Positions 1 to 6,892 of a DNA stretch of 33,006 nucleotides are shown one piece after another. The translations under genes were made by a program, and so were the position numbers. The notes beneath the pieces were generated by a model. It made no database searches, had not been told where the DNA came from, and saw nothing but the letters and a program-made list of their open reading frames with translations. This stretch comes from Oscillospiraceae bacterium (GTDB taxonomy: Bacteria > Bacillota > Clostridia > Oscillospirales > Oscillospiraceae): the NCBI GenBank assembly GCA_017465625.1, contig JAFTVV010000038.1, positions 1 to 33,006 of the forward strand, read 5' to 3'. The first letter of the stretch is position 1. Every line of letters begins with the position of its first letter.

Positions 1-98
1 AACCCCTCAGTCAGCTTCGCTGACAGCTCCCCTACAGGGGAGCCTTTTTGGGGGACGGATTGCCACGGACGCAAAAGCGCCCTCGCAATGACAGGGGG
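1..98 (+). repeat. Interspersed repeat, copy 1 (family A)
   Basis: About 98 bp, nearly identical to 218-314. The first half holds two small inverted repeats, TCAGC/GCTGA and CTCCCCT/AGGGGAG. The second half begins ACGGATTGCCACG and ends GCTCGCAATGACAG-like, with a GCGC-rich hairpin in the middle. It contains no credible coding sequence. The hairpin-rich intergenic layout resembles small non-autonomous (MITE-like) elements. Related copies lie at 121-170 (inverted, diverged), 3555-3655 and 6972-7005 (second half only). Confidence 0.85.
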
Positions 99-388: not shown

Positions 389-1498
389 TCAATGCTCGAA
401 TTCGTCTTCATCATTTTCTTGGGGCTTGTCCAGTTTTTTGACACCGGCAGCAACAAGACGCTTCGTAAGTTCACAGACATCGGAGTTACAATGGCCACTA
501 TAGAGGTCTTCAGCTCGCATCACTACGCACTTGGGACACGCTTTTTTATAAGCACACCCTTCACATTCAGCAGGCTGCACGATTTTCTTAGCTTGTTCTA
601 CAGTAATCTTCCACGCATCCGCAAAAGACATTTCCTTTAAGGACGGACCATCCCACGAAGGAAGGGATGCACAAGGCATCATCCGTCCATCCCAACAAAC
701 AACAGCCATACTGCGACCAGCATTACAGGTCATGCCAAAAGAACAAGGCTTCTTGCAGTCGCCGCCAATTTTAGGTAGATCTGTACAAGGAGGATAAACC
801 TTTCTAAATAACCGATTTCTTTCATGCGCAAGAGATACAACATCATCGGGCTTCATATAATGCTCTGCACTTTCAGGGTCATTTCTTTTTGGAATAAGCG
901 CAAGCTCGGATAGTAAAGGATTAAAGCCCTGTTCCTTAATGTAGCATAATGTGTTGATATAGTCAGGGGCAATATAGCTACTCCCCGTCACATTCACTTG
1001 TACATTGATACCGGCATCCCGAAGCATCTTTACACCGTTCATAGCACGGTCTCTACCAGTGTGTCCAGTAACATTACGGTAGCCTTCTTCGGTGCTGCCA
1101 TATATAGAAATACGAACTTTTTCAGGCTGATGCTGTTTTAGCAATTCTGCAAGTTCATCATCTATTAAAATACCGTTAGACAGTATTGTAATATAAACGC
1201 CTTTTTTCCAAAGATGGAGATACAATTCCTTAAAATCATGGCGTAACAGACATTCCCCACCGGTAAGGGTTGCAAACATCATCCCGTTATTAAAAGCATC
1301 ATCCATAATGGCTTTCCACTGTTCCGTAGAAAGCTCTTGGTCCTTCAATTTATTGGAATTCTGATTATGTACATAGCACATTTTGCAATCCAAGTTGCAA
1401 CGTGCCGTTAATTCATATTGTACACAAATAGGCGAATTATAATTATTTGAATCATTTATTAAGTTCTTTTTCCAGTTGGCAAAGTTTATTGTTTCCAT
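389..1498 (-). CDS. Radical SAM/SPASM peptide maturase (putative RiPP-modifying enzyme)
   Basis: A 369-residue radical SAM protein. The [4Fe-4S]-SAM motif is C34-x3-C38-x2-C41, followed by the SAM-binding TGGE at 79-82. The C-terminal half has a full SPASM-type cysteine set: C248, C252, C258, C268, a GRMMPC turn ending at C276, then C312-x2-C315-x5-C321-x2-C324-x12-C337-x4-C342. This can hold two auxiliary clusters, as in PqqE, MftC and sactipeptide/ranthipeptide maturases. Such enzymes form C-C or thioether crosslinks on small peptides. Residues 1-30 are too few for a PqqD-like leader-binding domain, so recognition must be direct or by a separate protein. A strong AGGAGG ribosome site (1505-1510) precedes the ATG. 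The gene directly follows a 33-codon ORF and a hairpin, the usual precursor/maturase arrangement. Radical SAM/SPASM membership is firm; the peptide-maturase role rests on context. Anaerobic sulfatase maturase is a less likely alternative, as no sulfatase is nearby. Confidence 0.9.
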   Translation of the reverse strand: METINFANWKKNLINDSNNYNSPICVQYELTARCNLDCKMCYVHNQNSNKLKDQELSTEQWKAIMDDAFNNGMMFATLTGGECLLRHDFKELYLHLWKKGVYITILSNGILIDDELAELLKQHQPEKVRISIYGSTEEGYRNVTGHTGRDRAMNGVKMLRDAGINVQVNVTGSSYIAPDYINTLCYIKEQGFNPLLSELALIPKRNDPESAEHYMKPDDVVSLAHERNRLFRKVYPPCTDLPKIGGDCKKPCSFGMTCNAGRSMAVVCWDGRMMPCASLPSWDGPSLKEMSFADAWKITVEQAKKIVQPAECEGCAYKKACPKCVVMRAEDLYSGHCNSDVCELTKRLVAAGVKKLDKPQENDEDEFEH

Positions 1499-1511
1499 AT
1501 CTGCCTCCTAT

Positions 1512-1544
1512 AAAAAATGAGAGGTAGGCAGATGCCTACCTCTC
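1512..1544 (-). terminator. Intercistronic hairpin with U-tract between precursor and maturase (leaky terminator)
   Basis: On the minus strand a perfect inverted repeat with 12-bp arms (GAGAGGTAGGCA / TGCCTACCTCTC; effective loop about 4 nt) is followed by ATTTTTT, then the maturase ribosome site. It begins 12 nt after the precursor stop codon. This is the expected design for making much precursor and little enzyme: partial termination and/or 3' end protection of a short precursor mRNA. Confidence 0.8.
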
Positions 1545-1556
1545 GGATGTAAAAAA

Positions 1557-1658
1557 TTAGCCGCAGGGATCAACATAGATGGGCTCTTCTTCCTCAACGG
1601 GGGAAGTGGAAACAGCCATAGCCAACTTGATCAGTTCAGCCTTAGGAGCAGTATACAT
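1557..1658 (-). CDS. Putative RiPP precursor peptide, 33 aa
   Basis: A 33-codon ORF starting MYTAPKAELIKLAMAV and ending EEEEPIYVDPCG before TAA. A good ribosome site, AAAGGAG, lies 9 nt before the ATG, and a perfect consensus promoter lies about 80 nt upstream. The N-terminal half looks like a short amphipathic leader of the YxxPKxExxxL kind. The C-terminal half is acidic, with a single cysteine (C32), a single core tyrosine (Y28) and a Glu run (E22-E25). No Gly-Gly protease site is seen, and no transporter or peptidase gene is adjacent. E24-x3-Y28 has the same spacing as the crosslinked Glu/Tyr of PqqA, and Y28-x3-C32 is another possible crosslink pair; both are speculation. Identification as the maturase substrate rests on adjacency, size and shared transcription. 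Confidence 0.8.
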   Translation of the reverse strand: MYTAPKAELIKLAMAVSTSPVEEEEPIYVDPCG

Positions 1659-1735
1659 AGTTATGTTCTCCTTTCAAATCATCAATCACATGCGGCGGAC
1701 TATGCCGTGATTACCGCAATCAAAAATCTGTTTGT

Positions 1736-1764
1736 ATTATAAGCGATAAATATTAGAATGTCAA
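1736..1764 (-). promoter_or_regulatory. Consensus SigA promoter of the RiPP unit
   Basis: On the minus strand TTGACA (1759-1764), 17-nt spacer, TATAAT (1736-1741): both hexamers perfect with optimal spacing. The roughly 70-nt leader to the precursor contains an inverted repeat, AATCAC/GTGATT (1707-1712 and 1684-1689). Strong, probably constitutive transcription is expected unless the leader repeat is regulatory. Confidence 0.85.
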
Positions 1765-1853: not shown

Positions 1854-3152
1854 TTAGCCGTAAACTGCCAAAACGGAGTCGCCGTACTTCATCATAGCAA
1901 TGGCGGCTGCTGCCAAATTAGCATTAGTACCGTTAATTCTGGACTTTGCAACTGCAGCAATGCTAGCAGTGTACAGCGGGCTGCCCTCAACAGGAGCATC
2001 ACCACTGTAAAGCTGTACAGTCACTTCTTTTCTCATTTGCTTTGCATTCAATCCAGAGTAGATCAAGATGCCACGATTGCTGGTGGAATCATCACCGAAG
2101 GGGTACATAGTAGTTACGCCGTCCATAGTCACAGCCACAGAATACTGATCCTTATCAAAACCAGAGGGCATTCTATAAACGAACTGCAGGCCAGTACGAT
2201 CTGCCAAATACAGAGAGCATGCGGCAAATGTGTAATTATCTTTGCCAGTAGTAGGCGGTGTAACATCAATAACAGGGGTTTCGGCGGTTGCATAAGCCTG
2301 CTGAGCCTCGGTCAAGTCCATGTTAGCCAAAGTTCCAGTTCTGTAGTTGAAATACACCTGCATTGCAGCACCAAAGTTCAACATATTAACATACAGATTA
2401 GCCTGGGCAGAATCACCGCTTGCAATGTAGGTAGCGACTCTTTCTTCAGCGCCTTCCTTAACGGACCAAATCTTGGGGTTGCCACAGTATGTTACGCCGT
2501 CCTTCTCTGCATACAGAGTGACTTCAAGGCGATCTGCCATCTGGCGAGACCATACGCCAAACTCATAAACATTGTTTCCGCCAACGCCTTCAGTAATCGT
2601 AGTAGCTACGATTTCGCTGTCTGCATCATAGGGCTTAACCTCCAACCATACACGGTCGTAAGCTTCCTTCTTAATCTTAGAGGTGCTGTAAACGAACGTT
2701 GCATTAATCTTATCCTGCATACTCAGAGCTACACGAGTATTATCCAGGACAGAGGCATAAACAGGGCCAGTGGGGGCAACTTCGAAAGCTGCGGTGAAGG
2801 AGTAAGCCTTTGCTTCGTTGGTAGCAACAATGATGTACTTGGTGCCGGCAGTAACAGCAACAGCATCAGTATAAGCAACACCGTCAACAGTGAAGGTGGT
2901 GCCGTCTTCAGCGGTCAGGGTCAGAGTGCCATTTTCAGCGGGGGTATATGCGTAGTAGGCGTTTGCCAGGCCGCTATCGGCATTGGTGCCAATAACAAGG
3001 GGCATTGCGTTTGCGGCATCGGTGCCGTAGATTCTGTCCATACCGGACTCGAAGTCGTTTGCAGCTGCGGAGGTCTTGGGCAACCAGGCGGCTACCATCA
3101 GTGCGCACAGCAGGACTGCAATGATTTTGGTGAGCATGCTATTGCGTTTCAT
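1854..3152 (-). CDS. Secreted protein of unknown function with the shared two-module C-terminus
   Basis: 432 residues. A signal peptide covers about 1-30 (KRNSMLTK, hydrophobic core, TSA-AA cleavage region), so it is exported. Residues 31-130 form a beta-rich, Ala/Thr-rich region. About 131-285 is a module with the diagnostic segment NMLNFGAAMQVYFNYRTG (256-273). About 302-432 is a second module containing KQMRKEVTVQLY (371-382) and SPLY (391-394). Both modules recur in the same order at the C-terminus of the nuclease at 3880-6846. No catalytic motif, LPxTG or SLH domain is seen. The ribosome site is AAGGAG, and a perfect consensus promoter lies upstream. I do not recognise a named family; a surface-anchoring or ligand-binding role for the modules is inference. 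Confidence 0.85.
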   Translation of the reverse strand: MKRNSMLTKIIAVLLCALMVAAWLPKTSAAANDFESGMDRIYGTDAANAMPLVIGTNADSGLANAYYAYTPAENGTLTLTAEDGTTFTVDGVAYTDAVAVTAGTKYIIVATNEAKAYSFTAAFEVAPTGPVYASVLDNTRVALSMQDKINATFVYSTSKIKKEAYDRVWLEVKPYDADSEIVATTITEGVGGNNVYEFGVWSRQMADRLEVTLYAEKDGVTYCGNPKIWSVKEGAEERVATYIASGDSAQANLYVNMLNFGAAMQVYFNYRTGTLANMDLTEAQQAYATAETPVIDVTPPTTGKDNYTFAACSLYLADRTGLQFVYRMPSGFDKDQYSVAVTMDGVTTMYPFGDDSTSNRGILIYSGLNAKQMRKEVTVQLYSGDAPVEGSPLYTASIAAVAKSRINGTNANLAAAAIAMMKYGDSVLAVYG

Positions 3153-3879: not shown

Positions 3880-6846
3880 TTATTGCGCAGTATAGGCTTT
3901 TGCGGCCAGGTGGTAGTCGTAGAGCTGCTGTACCATCGCCTTCAGCGTATCGGACGATTCTGCGTCATTATACACATTATAAATATAATTCAGAGGGCTA
4001 TAGGATATCTGCATGGTATCGTTGACTGTGACGGTCACTTCCCGATCCAAATCCTGAGGAAGAATTCCATCAATCTCTACGTAGTACAAGCCATCTTTCG
4101 GATTGATCTTTAAAGAAGAATTGCCGCATTTGACAGTATATGCATCGATGGTTTTATTGCCCGTGAGCACAAAGTAGAAACGTGTGGCAATATTCTCCCT
4201 GTGCAGCAAGGTTGCACCGTAATGAGCGATGCCATCCACCGCATTTTGTACTGCGGAATACTGCATCTTAACCGGAATGTTGGTCACAGTATCGGTAAAT
4301 CCGCTGTTTGCATAATGACCTGTATTGTAACCAAAATACTTTTGCGCAGCAGCACCGTAATGGAGCATCGCAAGGACCAGATCCTTGGTCTTCTGATTAT
4401 ACGTTCCCGTGGTATCCTTCAGGATATAGGACGCATATTCTGCCACGGAGTACGCTTTTTCTGTGCGCCCATCAGCAAGCAGCAGTTCTACCTCTACGGC
4501 ATCGGTCATTTGTGCCGCCGCCAAATGGATCGTCAGTTTATACTTGCCGTCTACCACCGGCAGATCCATCAAATCATAGTCCGTTGTCACGTCATTGACA
4601 GTCACGCAGGCTGTTCCCTCAGATGCCTGCGCATCGGTCAGCTCCAAGAGGATATTCATTGCAATATCATCGCCTAATGCAAGGTTGTAGCTATGGAAGG
4701 GATCGGCTGTCTGCTGAGGAACAACTGTATTTTGGGCGTAGCCGCAATAGGTACATTTACGGCTCTGTTCACCATCTGCGTCGGCAGCCGTCCACTGCGT
4801 CCAGCTATGGGATGCACAGGATACAAAGTTTGTGACCTGGGTGACCGCGTCGCAGTCGTCACACTGCATAGCGCTGTAGCCGCGGATCAGACAGGTGGGG
4901 TTCACAACCACCGCAATCACTGCATCGTGGTCACACTCCAAACCGCGGATATCCGTGGTATAGTGGGTAGCGACACTTTGCTGAGTCGCCACATACAACG
5001 AGATATCCTGCTGTCCGGATTTGTAACAGGAGAACAGGTCGTTTGAAGTGTTGTAACGCATAATGACATTGGTATTCGTGTCCTGCGCCACAACGGAGGC
5101 ATTACCGCTGGCGTCAACAGAAATTGCCCAGCTTGCCTGCTGGTTGATTTTTGCCTGACTTCTTAAGTGGTTATTCTTTTCACTTCCGGGTGCATACAGA
5201 TATTTACCGCCCGATGTTTTCAGCGCATAAGTACCGGACACCGAGCCGGAAACAAGGGTGAGGATTTCTGTATCCGCAGAAGGCGTGGCGGTTTTTCCCT
5301 CGGTGTTTTTAGCAATGGTGGTCTGCCCTCTGTTGTTCTTATTTTGAGTAGTGCTTAATGCCAAATCCTCATTGGCAGCGGTAATAAAGAGCTGTTTATT
5401 GACAGCCAATTGGGCGTTATCTGTCACCAGATTCCACACGGTAGTGGAGGACTGCTGATCATTGGAAACCCAGGAGTAAACCGCGCAGAAAGTAGTCGTT
5501 TCGTATACGGTCACGTCCGTGCCAACGGCATAAATGACGCTGGGCGCAGTAAGCGAATCGGTTATATACTGGGGTGTCCAGCCAAGGAAGGTGTATTGGG
5601 CATTCACCAATTCCTGCTTCGCAGGCATACGGACGATCGCGCCCGCTTCGGAGGTTTGGACGGATTTTAATACGCCATTTTCCAAAAAGCTGACGTTGAT
5701 CTTGTCCGCTTTTTTGAAGCGCACCTGCACACTGCAGTCGTCCTGGGCATCCACAAAAATCAGGTTGCCGTCATTGGAAAGACTTGCGCGACCGGCTGTG
5801 ACCACATAAGAGTCCAGCGCATAGCCGGGGGCAGGAATAGCCGTAACCAAAGCACCGTTTACCTCTACCGTACCGCAGTCCAAATTGGAAGAAGTGGCGG
5901 TAACTGTATAATCCACATCCCCATAGCCTTCACCGGAGGGAGTTACATAGCCTGCAGGAATCTGTGCATCAAACAGCATAAATGCCAGCTCCGGATAGTC
6001 CACAAACATATTACGGGTGCCGGTAATGGACTGCACAGAGTCGTTACGACCCATTTCCCACGTGTCTACCGGGTCTTCCGCCATCCATTTCAGCAAAATG
6101 GCACAGCTTTCAAATTCAGGGCCGTATACGCCGGTTTTGCCAAATAAATTGGTGCGAATTTCCAAATCACTTTCGCCATAGCGGACATATACATACAGGG
6201 CGATACGGGCAACGTCACCACGAACATCGTACGCACCGTTTGACGCTTTGTTGGGGTTATAGAAGTCACTGCCTTCGCCAAAGCCGGTATTGTTACGGCT
6301 GGAGTTGATTTTGCTGTCTAAGGGGCGAAGCATAATAATATCGTCCGGGCCGCCTAAGCTTTGCGGCCATATATGCTCCCGATTCCAGGTGTTGCCGTCC
6401 CAAACAGGACCGATGAAACCGCCATCATAAAAGCTGGAAATGGCGGTGGTCAGCTCACCGTTGCGCTGAATGTCGGTATACTGATACAAATAACGGGAAT
6501 CATCGTAGCTTGGATCTTTCACAAGGGCACTGAGGGTCAGATTCCGAATGGTCTCGGCAAGATCGCTGGCATAATATGCACCTGACTGCACATCATTGGA
6601 TAGTGCCGCAAAATCATCGTAGGTCACGCCCAGATCGTCATAAAAGTCCTCCGCCATGGGAGACAGGAAGGAGGAAACCTCCCCACGCTGACCCCAGTTT
6701 TTTACAACGCCTTTATACTTCTCCGTATCCACCGTCTGGTAAAAAACAGAGGCCGCTTCCGAAGAAACCGTAATTCCGGAAAACAGGCTCAATACCATCA
6801 GCAGTATTAAAGCAAAGGATAATCCGCGTTTATAAATTCCCTTCAT
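3880..6846 (-). CDS. Secreted multidomain nuclease (endonuclease I family)
   Basis: 988 residues from the ATG with GGAGGG 9 nt upstream; the reading frame runs 12 codons further upstream but without a ribosome site. A signal peptide covers about 1-32. An endonuclease I-type domain follows, with WNREHIWPQS (154-163; NREH is the His-Me/beta-beta-alpha metal site), MLRPLDSKINSSRNN (172-186), RGDVARIALYVYVRYG (209-224) and a TRNMFVDYPELA end (277-288). About 380-460 is an InlB/Listeria-Bacteroides-type repeat, recognised by FLGWTP. About 468-620 is a beta domain with YLYAPGS and FSCYKSGQQDISLY, a type I associate with secreted nucleases. About 637-705 is cysteine-rich (CxxC pairs), and 720-988 is the two-module C-terminus shared with the 432-aa protein, including GAAAQKYFGYNTG. 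The likely role is extracellular DNA/RNA degradation for nutrient or competitor DNA. No anchor motif is seen. Confidence 0.88.
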   Translation of the reverse strand: MKGIYKRGLSFALILLMVLSLFSGITVSSEAASVFYQTVDTEKYKGVVKNWGQRGEVSSFLSPMAEDFYDDLGVTYDDFAALSNDVQSGAYYASDLAETIRNLTLSALVKDPSYDDSRYLYQYTDIQRNGELTTAISSFYDGGFIGPVWDGNTWNREHIWPQSLGGPDDIIMLRPLDSKINSSRNNTGFGEGSDFYNPNKASNGAYDVRGDVARIALYVYVRYGESDLEIRTNLFGKTGVYGPEFESCAILLKWMAEDPVDTWEMGRNDSVQSITGTRNMFVDYPELAFMLFDAQIPAGYVTPSGEGYGDVDYTVTATSSNLDCGTVEVNGALVTAIPAPGYALDSYVVTAGRASLSNDGNLIFVDAQDDCSVQVRFKKADKINVSFLENGVLKSVQTSEAGAIVRMPAKQELVNAQYTFLGWTPQYITDSLTAPSVIYAVGTDVTVYETTTFCAVYSWVSNDQQSSTTVWNLVTDNAQLAVNKQLFITAANEDLALSTTQNKNNRGQTTIAKNTEGKTATPSADTEILTLVSGSVSGTYALKTSGGKYLYAPGSEKNNHLRSQAKINQQASWAISVDASGNASVVAQDTNTNVIMRYNTSNDLFSCYKSGQQDISLYVATQQSVATHYTTDIRGLECDHDAVIAVVVNPTCLIRGYSAMQCDDCDAVTQVTNFVSCASHSWTQWTAADADGEQSRKCTYCGYAQNTVVPQQTADPFHSYNLALGDDIAMNILLELTDAQASEGTACVTVNDVTTDYDLMDLPVVDGKYKLTIHLAAAQMTDAVEVELLLADGRTEKAYSVAEYASYILKDTTGTYNQKTKDLVLAMLHYGAAAQKYFGYNTGHYANSGFTDTVTNIPVKMQYSAVQNAVDGIAHYGATLLHRENIATRFYFVLTGNKTIDAYTVKCGNSSLKINPKDGLYYVEIDGILPQDLDREVTVTVNDTMQISYSPLNYIYNVYNDAESSDTLKAMVQQLYDYHLAAKAYTAQ

Positions 6847-6892
6847 AGTCGTACACCCTCCATATAGAATACAAATGGTCATATTTTATGGT

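Follow-up and report, generated by a model that had tools for sequence, protein, structure and literature searches.

The gene pair and its surroundings

The window (the whole stretch of DNA that was analysed, 33,006 nucleotides) is an entire contig of a 1.7-Mb assembly (G000), which is 80% complete. Read on the minus strand towards the contig end, it carries a promoter, an open reading frame (ORF) of 33 codons, a hairpin and a gene of 369 codons for a radical SAM/SPASM maturase, with 58 nt separating the precursor stop codon from the maturase start (Table 1). The contig stops 388 bases past the stop codon of the maturase gene. Identical copies of a 37-base repeat are present at this end (window 8-44 and 225-261), and the repeat may account for an assembly break just past the maturase.

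Short ORFs with a ribosome-binding site recur upstream of the maturase in the first nine clade loci that were read, the window included, and they end 59-94 nt 5' of the matching stretch. On this basis the ORF exceeds chance, and sequence comparison confirms the peptide-maturase pair as real. Concerning expression, four promoter-like sites were found where 4.1 were expected, and the site in front of the peptide gene is the only perfect match. Its score and position are identical in a related genome (G142), with lower scores at the other eight loci tested. The hairpin between the two genes, which recurs at 10 of 11 loci (z values refer to a background of single-base shuffles), would favour the precursor over the maturase. 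Strand, promoter and hairpin are absent from the sequence-only reading.

Table 1 Features of the locus, in window coordinates
Feature	Position	Strand	Basis
Precursor peptide MYTAPKAELIKLAMAVSTSPVEEEEPIYVDPCG, 33 aa	1557..1658	-	ORF translation; leader-bearing peptide upstream of 11/12 GGEC-clade maturases
Radical SAM/SPASM maturase, GGEC clade, 369 aa	389..1498	-	ORF translation, profile matches, clade membership
Ribosome-binding site AAAGGAG, peptide gene	1668..1674	-	Sequence
Ribosome-binding site TAGGAGG, maturase gene	1504..1510	-	Sequence
Leader, residues 1-19 (YxxPxxEL...STS), probably a divergent form of the wider leader	1602..1658	-	Leader end inferred
Cys32 codon, conserved near-C-terminal Cys	1563..1565	-	Cys within last six residues in 11/11 clade peptides
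CxxxCxxC radical SAM motif (C34, C38, C41)	1376..1399	-	Invariant in 16 sequences
GGEC motif, residues 80-83, clade signature	1250..1261	-	GGEC in 11/11 distinct clade members and 0/38 others; also in L230
SPASM cysteine region C258-C342	473..727	-	Alignment
Sigma-70-type promoter TTGACA-17-TATAAT before peptide gene	1736..1764	-	12/12 match
Terminator-like hairpin between precursor and maturase	1519..1544	-	Folding; strong hairpin at same place in 10/11 loci
Upstream protein with signal-peptide-like start (by eye)	1854..3152	-	Same type of C-terminal domain found shortly upstream of leader-peptide genes of relatives; putative functional link

Further upstream, a protein of 1000 amino acids with an Endonuclease I domain is encoded (window 3880-6882, minus strand). 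Proteins that resemble it by eye occur near the pair in G142 and, in G108, directly behind a second Cys peptide copy.

The maturase clade and its precursor peptides

The maturase matches the Pfam Radical_SAM model (5.4e-23), whereas its SPASM score stays below the gathering score (17.5 vs 21.5 bits). The sequence-only reading had nevertheless claimed a complete set of SPASM cysteines, and complete the set looks, since C258, C276, C312, C315, C321, C324 and C342 are invariant in 16 aligned relatives, as are the three cysteines of the radical SAM motif. Among the 25 NCBIfam models shown of 80 matched, none reaches its cut-off for the maturase, the best being heme b synthase (98 of 500 bits). Among solved structures, a profile comparison places SkfB nearest (6efn, 7.5e-32, profile positions 22-276). 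A leader-binding domain within the maturase is not expected, as the 33 residues ahead of the CxxxCxxC motif are too few for it.

In the genus, 8 of 136 genomes (that of the window included) match the maturase at 1e-100 or better. The other seven enzymes are 47-53% identical to that of the window, and the next similarity falls to 32-35%. Three more, L162 (48%), L164 (42%) and L165 (38%), were obtained by scanning named genomes and come from metagenome-assembled genomes named Oscillospiraceae or Bacillota, and L230 (35%), from another genus, was recovered through a search with the leader. Scans of genome contigs and viral contigs with a single-protein query gave no relatives of the maturase. Gut sources are named for three of the clade records (water deer, dairy cattle and sheep). 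Where the clade has GGEC, the 38 other radical SAM loci carry GGEP or GGET (the comparison comprised 50 rows, one clade record being present twice). In a tree, the 11 clade members known before L230 share one side of one branch (support 91/93, 90% of the bootstrap trees).

A leader-bearing peptide is encoded upstream of 10 of the 11 clade members that were found by the enzyme, which with the leader-found L230 makes 11 of 12, compared with 1 of the 38 other radical SAM loci; the leader profile was built partly from the clade's own peptides, so that circularity affects the count for the clade and leaves that for the 38 others untouched. Of the clade peptides, the first eight were already known from reading ORFs. 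The scanned upstream stretches were up to 700 nt long and shorter where a contig begins. L164 shows no peptide within the 255 nt before its maturase start nor elsewhere in its 4.8-kb record. The sequence-only reading had proposed a precursor of the RiPP type that is served by its own radical SAM/SPASM maturase, and had suggested looking for a small ORF upstream of close homologues of the enzyme. Both parts hold up well: such an ORF precedes nearly all of them, the pair is conserved, and the peptide is conserved at the protein level.

The tails of the 11 clade peptides end in EEEEPIYVDPCG (window), PPSGDALCV, KFLMPCI, ALVPPCG, SGTSCFGTGV, ALFPPCIAS, PEEYCVV, LEPPCL, GLGNCA, DAESCIWD (the L165 copy nearest to the maturase) and LIGDCI. 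The Cys is the penultimate residue in seven, which end in Cys-X with G, V, I, L or A as the last residue. An acidic residue is found within the four positions before the Cys in 6 of the 11 tails, and no residue that could serve as a crosslink partner is constant across them. Additional peptides are found in some of these genomes. Three peptides of G108 end in LFPPCIAS, of which only one adjoins a maturase, and the endings TLFPPCIAS and ALFPPCIAS differ by five synonymous and one non-synonymous codon changes over nine codons. Since the changes are mostly synonymous, this suggests that the ending is under selection as protein. The two peptides of G115 agree at 16 of the first 20 residues; the copy that adjoins the maturase ends in PPCG and the other has no Cys.

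Tandem arrays were also observed. At L165 (223-1000), four leader peptides precede one GGEC maturase, with Cys-less and Cys tails alternating so that two of the four carry a tail Cys, an arrangement like that of a two-component product. At L108 (G103:C8, 7022-7807), four tandem leader peptides have the ending NPNCENEGPAGDAFL in common, and a radical SAM gene of either of two query types was not found within 1.5 kb.

A tail Cys goes along with a radical SAM gene nearby. Of 17 peptides that have such a gene at a distance of up to 1.5 kb, 16 carry the Cys, compared with 10 of the 58 that lack one (p = 9e-9); the gene is defined here by a match to two query types only, and the count would overlook any other type. 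When the ten clade loci are left out, the proportions are 6/7 and 10/58 (p = 0.0006). If any Cys is counted, and the comparison is limited to non-clade peptides for which 1.5 kb of downstream sequence is available, they are 5/6 and 13/54 (p = 0.0076), a count that still includes a false ORF of G133 which was dropped from the comparison of 16/17 with 10/58. The rows are not independent, as five of the ten Cys peptides without an adjacent radical SAM gene come from G103 and two are the G108 copies. These ten still carry a tail Cys, and another exception is G027, where a short GGEP enzyme lies beside a Cys-free peptide. The six non-clade Cys cases adjoin the gene for a radical SAM enzyme of another type, longer at about 450 amino acids (L104, L110, L092, L087, L126 and L133; in G138 the gene is on the opposite strand). 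This second type, which accompanies peptides with the same leader, is nearest to TIGR04463 (124.7 bits, cut-off 525) and is a separate enzyme type from that of the window. Among 23 peptides at 20 loci from the order-wide search with the leader, only that of L230 has a tail Cys, and L230 is also the only one of these loci with a radical SAM gene of either query type in the stretch read, in this case a GGEC enzyme.

A wider leader family and its partner genes

The leader extends well beyond the enzyme clade. Its order-wide consensus is [YF]xxPxxEVxKFxxEDVITTS. A profile of the first eight peptides matches 42 of the 136 genus genomes at 0.1 (one of them, G133, by the false ORF), and, at a threshold of 1e-3, a leader-only profile finds 87 of 394 genomes sampled across the order, which belong to 47 of the 168 genera. 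The window genome is missed by the leader-only profile at this threshold; its divergent subtype, common to G142 and G115, is not in the profile. When a profile of 69 leaders that excludes this subtype is used, the score of the window peptide is 10.7 bits and exceeds those of all 500 shuffles; the G142 peptide also exceeds all 500, and the clade peptide of G115 ties one of 500. Together with the alignment and a location in front of enzymes of one and the same clade, this similarity weakly suggests that the window leader belongs to the order-wide family. In 73 aligned leaders, Y or F is found in 71, P or A three residues further on in 69, and M, V, L or I in 68, at the positions of a YxxPxL motif, while column 16 is F in 65 and column 25 is S in 69. 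A search of the full-text literature, in which coverage of subscription journals is thin, gave no description of the pair and leader, no match to the leader strings and nothing relevant on radical SAM peptides with a single or C-terminal Cys. At L081 (G143:C79), a lipoprotein-like gene that follows a leader peptide ends in GGAGTED and the peptide itself in GGAGNED; a lipoprotein-like and HPrK-like gene pair similar to that of L081 is present in the window genome (L149).

Several partner genes recur around these peptides. PqqD and the nucleotidyltransferase are defined by matches to PF05402 and PF14907, whereas 'ABC' and 'HPrK-like' are labels given by eye, the latter to a protein without a Pfam match. 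The S26-like (signal-peptidase-like) gene has a weak NCBIfam match (0.0035, 17.2 vs 51.85 bits) and no Pfam match, and its label is in part presumed. In G104, G028 and L162, the pair has a PqqD gene and an S26-like gene at a distance of no more than 3 kb. G104 has in addition a nucleotidyltransferase, an ABC transporter and an HPrK-like gene upstream of the pair, G028 an ABC gene downstream, and L162 an HPrK-like gene. A system that lacks transporter, protease and leader-binding domain, as had been described from the sequence alone, is thus not what the relatives show, as PqqD and the peptidase-like gene lie near the pair in three of them and an ABC gene in two of these three. The apparent absence of partners in the window follows from the contig ending just past the maturase, and the notion of a compact stand-alone system was rejected.

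The linkage varies with the lineage. Within the fetched flanks, PqqD was found at 3 of 11 clade loci and at 17 of 25 close non-GGEC relatives, of which 23 have an HPrK-like gene; flank lengths differ and several clade flanks are short. All eight genus genomes with the maturase encode PqqD, as do 60 of the 128 others in a separate query. Among 65 non-clade peptides, 18 have PqqD, HPrK-like and S26-like genes within 4.2 kb, and 10 of these 18 also an ABC gene; the same trio is present at 6 of the 20 order-level loci (best matches, one per genome). At 1e-15 an HPrK-like gene is found in 37 of 42 genomes with leader peptides and in 32 of 94 others, counts in which G133 is included; G142 and G115 gave no match at this threshold. 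The cassette may also lie at a distance: in G106, G107 and G108 it is located on another contig than the pair, and in G055 none of the leader peptides found shares a contig with it. No cassette is seen in the window genome, where single genes for a PqqD, an HPrK-like and an S26-like protein are spread over three separate contigs. Its PqqD gene is located on a contig other than the window, next to export-like and phage-like genes (by eye). With the partner genes scattered in this way, a helper set in the lineage of the window is putative.

The protein encoded upstream of the peptide gene at 1854-3152 deserves separate mention. Its type of C-terminal domain is found within 600 nt upstream of the peptide at 6 of 11 clade loci (G000, G142, G028, G108, L162 and L230) and upstream of 16 of 65 non-clade peptides, some of the domain queries having been taken from the counted loci themselves. 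At four of the five remaining clade loci the upstream sequence is no longer than 846 nt; at the fifth, G104, this place is taken by the S26-like gene. As the domain occurs only 1 to 17 times per genome (six genomes), adjacency by chance looks unlikely.

Candidate chemistry and its alternatives

The reading that we favour, with a probability of roughly 0.6, is that the locus encodes a RiPP precursor with a dedicated maturase that modifies the C-terminal Cys, probably to a thioether, and that leader handling by a PqqD-type protein, cleavage by an S26-like enzyme and export by an ABC transporter complete the system. It builds on the observed pairing and its conservation, the C-terminal Cys, the clade, the promoter, the hairpin and the linkage in three relatives. 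The leader (residues 1 to about 19) would be a divergent variant of an address tag that occurs across the order. A leader-binding domain does not fit into the maturase itself, so that a distinct protein of the PqqD type would most likely bind the leader. The SPASM enzyme would then act on the acidic, proline-rich tail, most likely at the single Cys near its end, and the sulfur would most likely be linked to a carbon of the backbone or of a side chain located a few residues before the Cys, giving a thioether ring as in sactipeptides or ranthipeptides. A signal-peptidase-like enzyme would remove the leader and an ABC transporter would export the product, for a putative role outside the cell. As in relatives, the helper genes may either be close neighbours of the pair or be encoded at another place in the genome.

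Among known systems, the sactipeptide maturases represented by SkfB provide the nearest structure, and the substrate of SkfB contains Cys, as does the window peptide. SkfB matches from its residue 107, so that it has about 85 more N-terminal residues than the window enzyme, the NCBIfam skfB model gives 69.7 bits for a cut-off of 300, and the window substrate has a single, C-terminal Cys. The feature shared with sactipeptides and ranthipeptides, a Cys-bearing precursor beside a SPASM maturase, is present for all 11 peptides; none of the named maturase models of these classes is over its cut-off among the 25 shown of 80 matched. For SPASM enzymes acting on Cys-bearing peptides a thioether is the most frequent product. 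This frequency argues against the possibility that the enzyme acts near the Cys in a different manner (epimerisation, oxidation, decarboxylation or excision of a peptide bond), perhaps leaving a free reactive thiol or a thiolactone-type signal. A constant Cys with an inconstant partner, and the seven Cys-X endings, would fit such a modification, but none of the data points to a specific alternative, and we consider it possible though rather unlikely. PMC9413430 describes that the ranthipeptide maturase PapB links Cys to Asp or Glu in a substrate of Cys-X3-Asp/Glu repeats, the acid following the Cys, and tolerates spacings of 0-6. Cys-Asp/Glu thioethers with loose spacing are feasible by analogy for enzymes of this kind, and the combination of Cys and acidic residues within one peptide is shared with the window. 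The window-type Cys is, in contrast to the PapB repeats, near the end with the acids mostly before it, and the PapB model gives 53.2 bits against a cut-off of 340.

The sequence-only reading had pointed to the spacing of the crosslinked pair in PqqA. PqqE with PqqD, and MftC of the mycofactocin system, rely on a short SPASM maturase and on a discrete leader-binding protein of the PqqD type, which is the architecture envisaged here, and the PqqE structure 6c8v is among the solved relatives of the maturase. A carbon-carbon bond between Glu24 and Tyr28, yielding a small redox cofactor that stays inside the cell, is very unlikely all the same. A Tyr beyond residue 19 occurs in 3 of the 11 clade peptides without a common position, a Glu-x3-Tyr arrangement is seen by eye in the window peptide only, and the scores for the PqqE model (72.4 bits, cut-off 381.35) and the mycofactocin model (78.9 of 265 bits) are low. 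The PqqA-like crosslink was hence rejected, and the second candidate pair, Tyr28-x3-Cys32, falls with the same Tyr, the constant residue being the C-terminal Cys. The suggestion that the product remains in the cell as a cofactor has become one weak possibility, because peptidase-like and exporter genes are among the partners near the pair in relatives.

Two further explanations take the leader or the upstream protein as their starting point. In PMC10368454, lasso peptide clusters with a kinase are described to have a YxxPxL leader motif, a discrete leader-binding protein, a kinase, a nucleotidyltransferase and an ABC transporter. The similar start of the leader and the PqqD, kinase-like, nucleotidyltransferase and ABC genes would agree with lasso-type precursors to which the radical SAM enzyme is an add-on. 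The positions of the leader motif lie, by our own count, about three residues further from the presumed leader end than in the lasso motif. The B2 peptidase family PF13471 is over its cut-off in none of the eight genomes, which are incomplete, with one sub-threshold match (G108). A weak signal-peptidase-like gene is found instead of B2, radical SAM enzymes lie beside some peptides, and no cyclase was seen by eye among the cassette genes read. Lasso membership was rejected for want of a B2 family member over the cut-off, and the add-on scenario is regarded as very unlikely. An equally doubtful option is that the short ORF is not a substrate and that the maturase acts on another target, such as the secreted-type upstream protein. 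The proximity of its domain to more than half of the clade peptides could be understood in this way, and so could L164, where a similar protein (by eye) ends directly upstream of the maturase and the peptide is absent. The retention of a Cys-ending peptide at 11 of 12 loci, the synonymous drift at the Cys ending in G108 and the recovery of L230 by its leader alone argue against it.

Returning to the favoured reading of a Cys-modifying maturase with its own precursor, a broader proposal can be made tentatively, at somewhat less than even odds. It holds that a modular class of RiPPs exists across the order, in which one leader tag is read by a shared and often distant cassette of PqqD, HPrK-like, S26-like and ABC proteins, that dispersed precursors carry unrelated tails, and that two radical SAM families have been recruited to the subset with Cys, the GGEC enzyme making an undescribed modification at the C-terminal Cys. 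What emerges is a conserved peptide-modifying gene pair in uncultured gut bacteria. An isolated guess has become a testable family, of which the constant feature is the C-terminal Cys rather than a Glu-Tyr pair, and the leader would be a form of a tag that is found on small peptides across the order. If a shared leader indeed directs scattered precursors to a single export cassette, and tailoring by radical SAM enzymes is an optional extra, this would provide a simple rule for finding many unannotated peptides of gut bacteria, as well as a compact enzyme for peptide chemistry.
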